Assembly (NCBI GenBank): GCA_938023075.1
Contig: CALHDG010000197.1
Coordinates: 1 to 42,099, forward strand
DNA: 42,099 nucleotides
DNA from: an uncultured Chitinophagales bacterium
GTDB lineage: Bacteria > Bacteroidota > Bacteroidia > Chitinophagales > JAHDHT01
Reading direction: 5' to 3'
A program made the position numbers and the translations under genes. Shown piece after piece: positions 6,259 through 23,860 of the stretch (positions within the stretch are counted from its first letter, which is position 1; each line of letters starts with the position of its first letter). Below the pieces are notes generated by a model that was not told the DNA's origin, did not search any database, and saw only the letters and a list, made by a program, of their open reading frames with translations.

Positions 6259-6401
6259 TGAATTTGTTTGGATGTAAATGTATTAAAATGTGGGTAGAAT
6301 TGATGTTTATCTTTTGATGTTATTCAACTAATTTGTTTAACTTAAATACATGCTTATACTTGGTTGATAAGAATATGTTAGAACAAGTGATTGACATTAT
6401 G

Positions 6402-6571
6402 CTCTTTAATCATTTATAAATTGCTAAATTACTACTTGATTATTGAACAAATCCTATTACAAAGAGGCTTGAACAGATGAAACGCCGCTTTCGGTAGCAG
6501 AAGTTAAGAAGAATAAAAAAGCTATTGAATTAATCAATTTATATATTAAACGACATTTCATTGTCCATTAA
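6402..6571 (+). pseudogene. Decayed ankyrin-repeat gene, C-terminal part
   Basis: Reading LFNHL-stop-IAKLLLDY-stop-TNP, then after a 1-base deletion TDETPLSVAEVKKNKKAIEL and INLYIKRH, this matches the second half of the intact ankyrin gene at 8219-8527 (FNHLDIAKLLLDYGANP ... ETPLSVAQVKKNQKAVEL). There are stops in place of Asp, Gly and Trp codons, plus the frameshift, so it is dead. It ends exactly where the inverted-repeat array begins. The ATPase gene thus sits between a dead and a live copy of the same small gene. Confidence 0.8.
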
Positions 6572-6722
6572 TTCTGCTCAATCTTACATTTTTTAACAGA
6601 TTGAGCAAGTTTAATTCTTTGTTAATTCTGCTCAATCTTAAAATAAATTTAACATTGAGCGAGATTAAATATTTGTTAATCTCGCTCAATCTTTATATAT
6701 TGGGCAGATTAAGCGAGATTAA
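6568..6722. repeat. Six-copy alternating 18-bp word array (54-bp period) abutting the ATPase start
   Basis: The word TTAATcTcGCTCAATCTt occurs at 6568, 6622 and 6676 on the plus strand and inverted at 6597, 6651 and 6705. Starts are spaced 29, 25, 29, 25, 29 bp. Each plus/minus pair makes an imperfect 18-bp palindrome with an 11-bp centre, so the array is a 54-bp tandem repeat of about 2.9 units. The last word ends 2 bp before the ATG at 6725. It could be an operator array or a set of transcribed hairpins. Confidence 0.93.
6672..6703 (+). promoter_or_regulatory. Candidate promoter inside the repeat array
   Basis: TTTG at 6672-6675 and TATATTGG at 6696-6703 resemble the Bacteroidota -33 (TTTG) and -7 (TAnnTTTG) boxes, one mismatch in the latter, with a 20-bp spacer. 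The fifth 18-bp word fills the spacer and the sixth covers the expected transcription start, so a protein bound there would block RNA polymerase. Position and role are inferred. Confidence 0.35.
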
Positions 6723-6724
6723 TA

Positions 6725-8164
6725 ATGATAGGAAGGCAATCAGAACGTGCATTATTGAACAAAAAATTACGGAATAAAAAGGCAGAAATGGTGGCTGTAG
6801 TCGGTCGTAGACGTGTTGGTAAAACCTTCTTAATCCGGGAGCATTACAAAGAGTATATTGTATTTGAGTTTACAGGCACTCAATATGCAGACAAAGAAAA
6901 TCAATTGTTAAAATTTGCGGATAAACTCAATCAATATAATAAAGATCAAATTTCTATAGCCATACCTGAGGATTGGGCAGCGGCATTCAAGCAATTAAAA
7001 GCATACTTACAAAGTCTGCGAAAGTCAAAGCGCAAACCAACAATTTTTTTTGATGAGCTCCCATGGATAGATAGCCCACGATCCGGTTTTTTAAACGAAT
7101 TTGCCTATTGGTGGAACGATTGGGCATGCCGTCAAAATATAATAGTAGTTATTTGTGGTTCAGCCGCATCGTGGATGATTGACCGTGTTGTAAACAATAA
7201 GGGTGGATTACATAATAGAATTACCGAGTATATTCATTTAAAACCTTTTACATTGGCAGAAGTAAAACAATATGTACACACCGTTAATCCGGCTTTAGAT
7301 AATTATCAACTTTTGCAACTCTATATGTCTATTGGAGGCATACCCCATTATTTACAACACCTTCAAAAAGGAGAATCGGCAACACAAACAATTAACCGTT
7401 TATGTTTTCAAAAAGATGGAATTTTACGCAATGAATTCAATAATTTATACGCCGCATTGTATGAAGGACACGATAGGCATATTGCAGTTGTAAAAGCACT
7501 ATCTACCAAATGGAAAGGCTTAACCCGGATGGAAATTAGTGCTTTAACCGGCTTGTCGAATGGCGGTGGCTTAACCCAAATTTTAACCGAGTTAACAACA
7601 GCTTCTTTTATTATGCCTATTCTGCCTTTTGGCAAAAAGAAAAAAGATACTTTATTCCGTTTAGTAGATGAATATTCGCTGTTGTACATGACTTTTATTG
7701 AAGGAAAACGTGCCGGTAAAAAAGAGATTTGGTTACAAACTTCAAGAGAACAATTTTACAAGATATGGCGTGGTTATGCTTTTGAAAATATTTGCATAAA
7801 ACACGCCGAAGCCATCAAAAAAGCATTGGGTATTTCGGGTATGCTTACGGAAGTTTCCGGCTATAGAAATCATGGTAAAAAGGAAGGTAGTGGCATACAA
7901 GTTGATATGCTAATTGATCGTGCTGACCGGTGTATTAATCTCTGTGAAATTAAATTTTATAACGATGAAATAAGCCTGACTAAAGAAGATGCAGAAAAGT
8001 TAAGAAGGCGACGAACCCGTTTTATACAATTCTCCAAAACCCGTAAAACAGTTTTTAACACCTTGGTTACTAATTATGGCATAAATCAAAATCAATACAG
8101 TTTAGGGCAAGTAGACTATGAAGTTACTATGGACGCTTTGTTTAAGTTGAGAAGTTTTGCTTGA
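6725..8164 (+). CDS. AAA+ ATPase (ATPase_2/DUF234 type) with PD-(D/E)XK-like C-terminal domain
   Basis: A 479-residue protein of the archaeal-type ATPase families. Walker A is GRRRVGKT (27-34), Walker B IFFDE (107-111), and the sensor region ICGSAASWM (143-151). A winged-helix-like segment follows (about 250-300). The C-terminal part has the order expected of a restriction-endonuclease fold: Glu354 (YAFENI), Asp394 (IQVDMLID), Glu408-x-Lys410 (LCEIKF), so the nuclease-like site looks intact. The biological role of this family is not established; links to mobile or defensive elements have been proposed. The gene has its own inverted-repeat array up to its start codon and is followed by an ankyrin-repeat gene 54 bp downstream on the same strand, possibly co-transcribed. 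Confidence 0.85.
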   Translation: MIGRQSERALLNKKLRNKKAEMVAVVGRRRVGKTFLIREHYKEYIVFEFTGTQYADKENQLLKFADKLNQYNKDQISIAIPEDWAAAFKQLKAYLQSLRKSKRKPTIFFDELPWIDSPRSGFLNEFAYWWNDWACRQNIIVVICGSAASWMIDRVVNNKGGLHNRITEYIHLKPFTLAEVKQYVHTVNPALDNYQLLQLYMSIGGIPHYLQHLQKGESATQTINRLCFQKDGILRNEFNNLYAALYEGHDRHIAVVKALSTKWKGLTRMEISALTGLSNGGGLTQILTELTTASFIMPILPFGKKKKDTLFRLVDEYSLLYMTFIEGKRAGKKEIWLQTSREQFYKIWRGYAFENICIKHAEAIKKALGISGMLTEVSGYRNHGKKEGSGIQVDMLIDRADRCINLCEIKFYNDEISLTKEDAEKLRRRRTRFIQFSKTRKTVFNTLVTNYGINQNQYSLGQVDYEVTMDALFKLRSFA

Positions 8165-8218: not shown

Positions 8219-8527
8219 ATGTCAGGAGGAAATTGGAAAGATATGTTTAAAGGCGTTCAAGATGGAGATGCTGGTTTGGTAGAATATCATCTTAAAATGG
8301 GTATTGACCCAAATTATCAACATCCGGAGTTTTTGGCAGCTCCATTGGTTGAAAGCATCCGGTTTAATCATTTAGATATTGCCAAATTGCTGCTTGATTA
8401 TGGAGCAAATCCAACCATAAAAGAAGCTTGGGCAGGAGAGACTCCGCTTTCTGTGGCACAAGTTAAAAAAAATCAAAAAGCTGTTGAGTTGATTAATGGA
8501 TATATTAAAAAGCAGAACAGCAGTTAG
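8219..8527 (+). CDS. Small ankyrin-repeat protein
   Basis: A 102-residue protein with about two ankyrin repeats: residues ~15-35 (GDAGLVEYHLKMGIDPN) and ~40-70 (APLVESIRFNHLDIAKLLL, DYGANP), then ETPLSVAQVKKNQKAVELI starting a third. No signal peptide, so probably cytoplasmic and protein-binding; the partner is unknown. A dead copy of the same gene lies on the other side of the ATPase (6402-6571), which suggests a duplicated pair with the ATPase region between them. The ATG at 8219 follows an AT-rich 54-bp gap. Confidence 0.85.
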   Translation: MSGGNWKDMFKGVQDGDAGLVEYHLKMGIDPNYQHPEFLAAPLVESIRFNHLDIAKLLLDYGANPTIKEAWAGETPLSVAQVKKNQKAVELINGYIKKQNSS

Positions 8528-22490: not shown

Positions 22491-23690
22491 TTATGTACCC
22501 ATCCATTTCCAAAAAGGTATAATTTCAACTTTGCCAATTCCTTTTATTTTATAACTGTCCTCTTCGTTATAGGTTATCAGTTTTGCTTTCTTCAAATTAA
22601 AAAATTGCATCGCCTCTGCCAAACCATTAAATTCCCTATCTTTATTATGCCTGTCGAGCTGCCAACAAACTTGGTATAAGTGGTGCTTGCCTTTATCTAC
22701 TACTACAAAGTCGCATTCATTTTTTTCCTGAAAATAATAAATTTCAGGATGCGTATGTCTTAAATGCATATACACCATATTTTCTAATATGCGTCCAAAA
22801 TCGTCACTCAATTGTGTGCTGTTTTGTTTTGCAAATGCATGGTCAACTATATACACTTTTTTAGGATTATTTTGCTGCTTTTTTACGCTGTAGGTAAAGC
22901 GGGGTATAATGTAAATAAGATAAGCATTAACTAACATATTGGTATAATCAACAACCGATTTTACTGATTTAATTTGATAGTTTTTTGCCATACGGCTTAA
23001 GGTAAAGGGCCGGGCTAAATTATTAATTAAGTGTAATGCCACTTTATTAAAATCGGGTAAATTTCGCAGTCTATACCTAACGGCAATATCTCTTTGAACT
23101 ATATCATTGTACAATTCGTGATGATAGGTAGGCATTTTATATTTTAAGGCTTCTGGAAAACCACCGGCTTTAAAATAGCCATCAAAAGAAGTTTTACAAG
23201 GTTTTTGTTTTTTAAAATTTAAGTATTCTTTATATGAAAATGGAAATAATTCAAAAGTTAAATGCCTGCCGGTTAGCAAAGTGCCTAGCTCTTTGCTTAA
23301 TAACTGTGCATTAGAACCGGTTATATAAATCTGCTTTTTTCGTTCTACCGCATGCCTAACATACTTTTCCCATCCTTTTACTTGTTGTATTTCATCATAT
23401 TGAAACTGTTGTTTATCTGTCCAAATTTCTTCTAAGGTATAAAAGTCAGCTACTTCAAAATCTGAGAGGCGAGGATCATCAAAATGTAGATATGCTGCAT
23501 TTGTTTTTTTTTGATGGTGCAATAGTTTCATTAAGGTACTTTTCCCTGATCTGCGGATGCCAGACAGTACAATAGCTTTTGGTAAACCAACGGGTATTTC
23601 ATTAAAAACAGTCCGGTTTATCCATTGTTTTTTATCAATAAAATAAGCATTTTGTTGGTTAGTTACTTGTAGCAATTGCGATTTTATCAT
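22491..23690 (-). CDS. AAA+ ATPase with DUF4143-type C-terminal domain
   Basis: A protein of about 399 residues. ATG at 23690 is preferred over an in-frame TTG at 23708 because the candidate -7 box overlaps the latter. Walker A GIRRSGKS (44-51), Walker B FQYDE (96-100), and IYITGSNAQLLS (121-132) are AAA_14 features; DUF4143 follows (about 190-345) with wHTH-like LARPFTLSRMAKNY. The C-terminal nuclease-like fold has ECDFVV (Asp327) but YQVCW (340-343) where active nucleases carry E/Q-x-K, so catalysis is doubtful; Q-V-C is common in this family. Role unknown. Its upstream region carries an exact 23-bp-period tandem array, parallel to the array before the other ATPase at 6725. Confidence 0.85.
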   Translation of the reverse strand: MIKSQLLQVTNQQNAYFIDKKQWINRTVFNEIPVGLPKAIVLSGIRRSGKSTLMKLLHHQKKTNAAYLHFDDPRLSDFEVADFYTLEEIWTDKQQFQYDEIQQVKGWEKYVRHAVERKKQIYITGSNAQLLSKELGTLLTGRHLTFELFPFSYKEYLNFKKQKPCKTSFDGYFKAGGFPEALKYKMPTYHHELYNDIVQRDIAVRYRLRNLPDFNKVALHLINNLARPFTLSRMAKNYQIKSVKSVVDYTNMLVNAYLIYIIPRFTYSVKKQQNNPKKVYIVDHAFAKQNSTQLSDDFGRILENMVYMHLRHTHPEIYYFQEKNECDFVVVDKGKHHLYQVCWQLDRHNKDREFNGLAEAMQFFNLKKAKLITYNEEDSYKIKGIGKVEIIPFWKWMGT

Positions 23691-23705
23691 CTTTCGATAT
23701 TTGCC

Positions 23706-23736
23706 CAAAGGTAGTATTATTTATTAGCAATATCAA
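23706..23736 (-). promoter_or_regulatory. Candidate promoter of the second ATPase
   Basis: On the minus strand TTG (23736-23734), a 20-bp spacer, then TACCTTTG (23713-23706), an exact TAnnTTTG -7 box. Transcription would start about 9 nt before the ATG at 23690. The -33 part lies inside the first 23-bp repeat, so the array continues upstream from the promoter. Confidence 0.45.
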
Positions 23737-23860
23737 GTATCGTGTATTAGTAATATCAAATAACGTGTATTAGCAATATTAAATAACGTGTATTAGTAAT
23801 ATTATATAACGTGTATTGGCAATATATAAAAATATGTATTGCTAATACATATAAATTGAT
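23723..23860. repeat. 23-bp tandem array upstream of the second ATPase
   Basis: Units start at 23723, 23746, 23769, 23792, 23815 and 23838, exactly 23 bp apart. The core is ATTAGyAATATyA followed by AATAACGTGT in the better units. The TATTrGyAATA word is nearly self-complementary, and the last unit carries it inverted (GTATTGCTAATAC). There are no spacers, so it is not a CRISPR array. It resembles iterons or a multi-site operator. Confidence 0.93.

Follow-up and report, generated by a model that had tools for sequence, protein, structure and literature searches.

The window analysed here, which is the whole stretch of 42,099 nt taken from contig CALHDG010000197.1 of an uncultured Chitinophagales bacterium (GCA_938023075.1), carries on its forward strand a gene for a protein of 479 amino acids (6725-8164) with an AAA+ ATPase domain, a winged helix and a PD-(D/E)XK nuclease fold. 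The reading frame matches Pfam PF01637 (ATPase_2, E 4e-18) and, over residues 1-473 and hence full length, the PADLOC model PDLC04984 of PDC-S27 (E 2.7e-186); this match and the fusion of an ATPase to a PD-(D/E)XK nuclease place it in PDC-S27. The Walker A motif GRRRVGKT lies at residues 27-34 (6803-6826), and its residues G27, R28, R29, G32, K33 and T34 are unchanged in 57 homologues. Pfam DUF234 (PF03008) is matched at 0.01 by 20 of the 57 homologues but not by the window protein. A phmmer search with the protein retrieved no relative among PDB sequences, so structures had to be compared by fold. The AF2 model of the whole protein (mean pLDDT 91.4) places a winged-helix domain at residues 249-313 (7469-7663), with helices at 249-259, 268-275 and 281-292 and strands at 296-299 and 310-313. 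The C-terminal nuclease fold (7736-8161) has invariant D394, E408 and K410; when this domain was modelled alone the mean pLDDT was 90.7, and Foldseek returned AF1548 (1y88), MspJI, EndoMS and other endonucleases as best matches. For the N-terminal part, Foldseek returned the archaeal ATPases PABY2304 and SSO1545 first, followed by ORC/Cdc6 and NLR-type STAND proteins. The gene is flanked by two ankyrin-repeat copies, one of them broken: a gene at 8219-8527 and its decayed copy at 6380-6555, which lies directly upstream of the array described below. Elsewhere in the window, a 168-bp tandem repeat (1030-1350; 1.9 copies, 90% match) is located inside an open reading frame of 1020 amino acids with Ig, cadherin and TSP3-type repeats.

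A palindromic array before the start codon

Ahead of the ATPase gene stand three gapped palindromes of 47 bp each, with a period of 54 bp. In the register shared by the family, each unit has two 17-bp half-sites around a 13-bp spacer: unit 1 spans 6568-6614 (half-sites 6568-6584 and 6598-6614), unit 2 spans 6622-6668 (6622-6638 and 6652-6668) and unit 3 spans 6676-6722 (6676-6692 and 6706-6722), with 14, 13 and 16 of the 17 positions pairing, respectively. An earlier note on this sequence had described six words of alternating orientation, 18 bp long and with starts 29-25 bp apart. The array itself was recovered by a repeat search and by TRF, while the word length and spacing turned out to be a shifted register of 17-bp half-sites whose starts are 30-24-30-24-30 bp apart; the array does end, as that note stated, 2 bp before the ATG (6722 and 6725). 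Its order is also as hard to obtain by chance as had been supposed, since none of 1000 dinucleotide shuffles came close. At the 54-bp period, the arms of all three units together pair at 43 of 51 positions (shuffles: mean 21.4, maximum 28), and the top-scoring palindrome reached 15.5 compared to a shuffle maximum of 13.0. These results confirm that the array is real and beyond chance.

Unit 3 overlaps the predicted core promoter (6672-6702, forward strand), which would be made up of TTTG at 6672-6675, resembling a -33 box, and TATATATTG at 6694-6702, resembling a -7 box, and which is weak in the window copy. A sigma-70-type scan of the window gave TTGTTA (starting at 6673) and TATATT (ending at 6701) with 9 of 12 matches, which is the level of shuffled sequence. 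The -7 consensus of Bacteroidota is TAnnTTTG, and its part TAnnTTT was found family-wide in 116 of 230 last spacers compared to 27 of 144 earlier spacers (p 6e-10). The -33/-7 boxes proposed in the earlier note are thus at chance level in the window copy, and it is the enrichment across the family that speaks for them. In the Firmicutes relatives L102 and L103, TATAAT and an upstream TTGAC-like box, read by eye, overlap the outer left arm. The TAnnTTT enrichment together with these boxes indicates that in Bacteroidota and Firmicutes alike the core promoter lies under the last palindrome, though in differing arrangements; overlap of a palindrome with the gene's own promoter is a feature of the family, of which the window copy itself is a weak example.

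Palindromes across the family

Homologues were collected from GTDB genomes, contig collections and plasmids. Nearly all of them have palindromes directly before the start codon, and the word is different in each. When the spacer was left free between 8 and 20 bp, it was 13 or 14 bp in 154 of 180 non-redundant genes, or 87% of the 177 genes in which a palindrome was found, and successive palindromes lay 52-54 bp apart in 96 of 144 pairs. A palindrome score of at least 12 was reached in 70% of 104 upstream regions; the corresponding share was 0.6% for shuffles and 1.0% for windows elsewhere in these loci. The distances of about 30 bp between half-sites and 52-54 bp between palindromes amount to nearly three and five turns of the helix, a spacing that suits a protein on one face of the DNA. 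The comparison that the earlier note had called for, namely homologues with conserved spacing but lineage-specific words, therefore came out in its favour, and the kept spacer and period agree with its idea of selection on spacing by a multimeric DNA-binding protein. Close intact homologues without repeats, which it had named as evidence against the idea, are few: no candidate palindrome at all was found in 3 of the 180 genes and in 2 of 87 genes of a held-out set. A clear array was absent upstream of the intact relatives L014, L273 and L304, and the same holds for most of the distant relatives examined from plasmids, archaea and epsilonproteobacteria.

The family is patchily distributed (37 of 296 genomes of the class), with many divergent paralogues per genome; some members are on plasmids and one is on a phage, and the viral contigs searched held one relative only. 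The window's own genome has eight family reading frames, including the window gene, and one fragment. Neighbouring genes are not conserved among the loci, and the one neighbour seen repeatedly, at 5 loci, is itself a fragmentary family member. C-terminal fragments were found at a contig end (G000:C257:1-348, L011) and beside the intact genes L053, L059, L071, L076 and L083, which suggests frequent decay in the family. A gene of another candidate type, PDC-S01, lies on the reverse strand of the window at 22491-23708 (PADLOC PDLC04787, E 3e-103), and five copies of a 23-bp direct repeat (23722-23854) are positioned just before its start. Among 24 PDC-S01 genes examined, 13 had direct or inverted repeats upstream that exceeded all 40 shuffles, and it may therefore be a general feature of single-gene ATPase-nuclease candidates to carry upstream repeats of their own.

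Within a genome, each word appears to belong to one gene. Allowing up to three mismatches, the window palindrome was found only in its own array across the 6.1 Mb of its genome, so that it was not encountered away from the gene, the other outcome that the earlier note had held to count against it. Two further family genes gave the same result, and no second site for a gene's own palindrome was found in the two genomes searched. There was no sign that words diverge actively within one genome (similarity 5.61 of 10 within genomes and 5.21 between genomes).

Covariation of the word with the winged helix

In order to relate word and protein, mutual information with average-product correction was calculated between the 17 half-site positions and the protein columns of 142 genes (effective number 125). 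Among all residues and all 17 positions, the five strongest pairs joined N279 to positions 10 (Z 24) and 11 (Z 14), K307 to position 12 (Z 11), and both G282 (Z 10) and Q285 (Z 9.5) to position 7; G282 covaries with positions 6 and 7. In the AF2 model, N279 caps the recognition helix (helix and N-cap, residues 279-292; 7559-7600), residues 282 and 285 are on its first two turns, and K307 (7643-7645) is in the wing. The base at position 10 follows residue 279: T accompanies asparagine (33.5 of 41), C accompanies serine (37 of 39) as well as threonine, and G is found with either acid, aspartate or glutamate (48 of 51). Similarly, position 12 is A with lysine at the wing residue 307 (99 of 103) and T with arginine (19 of 24), and arginine at 285 goes with G at position 7. 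The contacts expected of these side chains are asparagine with adenine, an acid with cytosine and serine with guanine, and the preferences would make chemical sense if residue 279 faces the complementary strand, as we infer.

The pair counts come from related sequences, and kinship was addressed by a holdout, a nearest-neighbour comparison and a tree. The holdout consisted of 87 further genes, whose products share no more than 90% identity with any protein used before (median identity to the nearest one, 60%). The rule was frozen on the 142 genes, and the word positions under test were masked when the palindrome was picked, which 85 of the 87 genes had. At position 10 of these 85 genes, asparagine went with T in 18 of 21, serine with C in 18 of 21 and threonine with C in 10 of 10; aspartate went with G at position 11 in 22.5 of 23; and at position 12, lysine 307 went with A in 48 of 54 and arginine 307 with T in 15.5 of 19. 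Overall the rule was correct in 62.5 of 80 cases at position 10 and in 63.5 of 73 at position 12, and in every comparison for which both methods were applicable it did better than copying the word of the nearest training protein (51.5 compared to 41 of 60, 49.5 compared to 39 of 57, and 14.5 compared to 7.5 of 18). Its main failure was aspartate 279 with T in place of G at position 10, in words that keep G at position 11. When residues 245-330, and hence the winged helix, were left out of the tree, the class of residue 279 changed 39 times on it, and the predicted base followed in 32 of the 39 (p 5e-10 against one in three). Ranking all columns by co-changing branches was noisier: K307 came first at position 12 and G282 first at position 7, while N279 was fifth at position 11 and not in the top six at position 10. 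Among the family genes of the window's genome, the rule holds in 6 of 6 covered genes at position 10 and in 8 of 8 at position 12. Taken together, covariation, holdout and tree support the gene's own protein as the predicted reader of the word, so that the ATPase with its winged helix, which the earlier note had offered as the candidate for binding, remains the favoured one on these sequence grounds.

Interpretation and known systems

We consider it likely, with good though not full confidence, that the palindromes of the array serve as operators for the product of the same gene, which would act at the DNA level, not the RNA level, as an autorepressor. Each ATPase-nuclease would use its winged helix to read the 17-bp half-site. 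A protein dimer would occupy one palindrome, whose two half-sites are separated by about three helical turns, and a series of up to several palindromes at intervals of five turns would provide a cooperative platform. With the palindrome nearest the gene over the core promoter, binding would most likely block RNA polymerase and leave the gene nearly silent. If the protein were removed, or its state were changed by ATP, a ligand, or phage or DNA stress, it would leave the site and expression would rise. Recognition residues and operator would evolve together and give each gene its private word, and because of this co-evolution the 8 or 9 paralogues in the window's genome would not cross-regulate. 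What we infer in this model is the binding itself, the formation of dimers, an effect that represses and does not activate, the trigger, and any role in phage defence. Judged from sequence, the candidate phage-defence genes of this family most likely switch themselves off until needed.

In another reading, each gene is a single-gene mobile or homing cassette whose palindromes are its ends or its target, which the winged helix would recognise and the nuclease would process, with promoter control being secondary; we regard this as unlikely. It draws on palindromes located behind the gene, for which simple promoter occlusion does not account: 20 of 134 genes (about 15%) have their own palindrome also within 110 bp after the stop codon, and 30 palindromes fall in the first 100 bp after the stop compared to 0-2 in each 100-bp bin beyond. 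In several genes (L128, L139, L156 and L160) the unread spacer is copied too, in direct orientation, and in L139 the spacers of the palindromes on both sides of the gene (G280:C58:106686-106730 and 108162-108206) are identical. The patchy distribution, the many divergent paralogues per genome, the unconserved neighbours and the plasmid and phage members point the same way. So does the wRi_AMD phage (L199, Wolbachia phage WO), in which the ATPase lies between two capsid genes, at a spot where the WO phages L340, L341, L342 and L343 have no ATPase and keep at least one related palindrome of the form ACCGC...GCGGT. Recombination loss between flanking palindromes, or homing into a resident one, would give such solo palindromes, and the flanking and WO-phage palindromes suggest a cassette that can be gained or lost at a palindrome. 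The downstream palindromes may, on the other hand, serve looping or insulation, and those of the WO phages may be a resident regulatory repeat unrelated to the ATPase. Moreover, the window copy and most relatives have no palindrome within 110 bp downstream; relatives with both sites have no target-site duplication (shared flank words 4.93 compared to 4.90 at random); no clean empty site was found in genus g76, where the flanks are repeat-rich and not contiguous; the two genomes searched contain no second site for the palindrome; and the promoter motifs are concentrated in the last upstream unit. The wider form of the idea, a widespread mobile or homing family whose private, fast-evolving palindrome is operator and end or target at once, seems to us equally improbable.

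Control of translation or mRNA stability by three RNA hairpins in the 5' leader, the alternative raised in the earlier note, is very improbable. Each unit does fold better than shuffles (z -3.9, -5.5 and -6.1), but any DNA palindrome would fold likewise, and there was no Rfam match at gathering score, only sub-threshold microRNA models. The helical phasing (about 30 and 52-54 bp) also argues against hairpins. Because promoter-like motifs lie inside the last palindrome, the upstream units are probably untranscribed; this, and the fact that the word covaries with recognition-helix and wing residues, hence with a DNA-reading fold, weakens the RNA reading. Least probable of all, and hardly to be expected, is a replication-origin or centromere-like array by analogy to the origin boxes of archaeal Orc1/Cdc6. 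Inverted repeats beside the gene of an AAA+ protein with a winged helix would suit it, as would the ORC/Cdc6 structures among the next fold matches after the archaeal ATPases, and on this fold similarity the analogy rests; many copies are dispersed over each chromosome, however, each with a private word, the protein has a nuclease domain, promoter motifs lie in the last palindrome, and replication genes are not conserved neighbours.

Should each copy indeed control its own promoter as an autorepressor, a member's binding site would be predictable from four residues, or usable as a test, and cross-talk among paralogues in one cell would become measurable. The family would then be a natural library of co-evolved winged-helix/DNA pairs, and it would be explained why cloned copies may be silent, or toxic without the operator. 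Autoregulation through palindromes is of a known kind; what would be new is a candidate defence NTPase-nuclease with its own reader, a word per gene and a short residue-to-base rule. Such a self-reading protein was absent from the literature searched, which left out most subscription papers and the original PDC preprint and in which nothing on point was found concerning an upstream repeat or autoregulation in a PDC-S27-type family.

In fold, the structures that match the AF2 model best (E about 1e-9) are SSO1545 (2fna) and PABY2304 (2qen) of Pfam ATPase_2, which differ in having 17-19% identity to the window protein and about 350 residues, so that they are without the C-terminal nuclease region; we know of no operator for either. 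Archaeal Orc1/Cdc6 are AAA+ ATPases with a winged helix whose origin recognition boxes adjoin their own gene. Unlike them, the window family has a nuclease domain, many private words per genome and promoter overlap. PDC-S27, with which the window protein shares its architecture, is reported to be one of the more frequent defence candidates of archaea and bacteria. PMC12988326 presents S27 as a fusion of an ATPase domain with a PD-(D/E)XK member and as a defence candidate by embedding only, with experimental validation pending for most PDCs. The searched passages of papers naming S27 mention neither operators upstream of the gene nor autoregulation nor a code for reading DNA. Operators that hold defence genes low are described for the WYL proteins BrxR/CapW and for RptR (PMC9122601, PMC9122588, PMC12255303). 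These appear there as dedicated regulators, whereas in PDC-S27 the NTPase-nuclease itself carries the predicted reading domain, with its own word for each gene.
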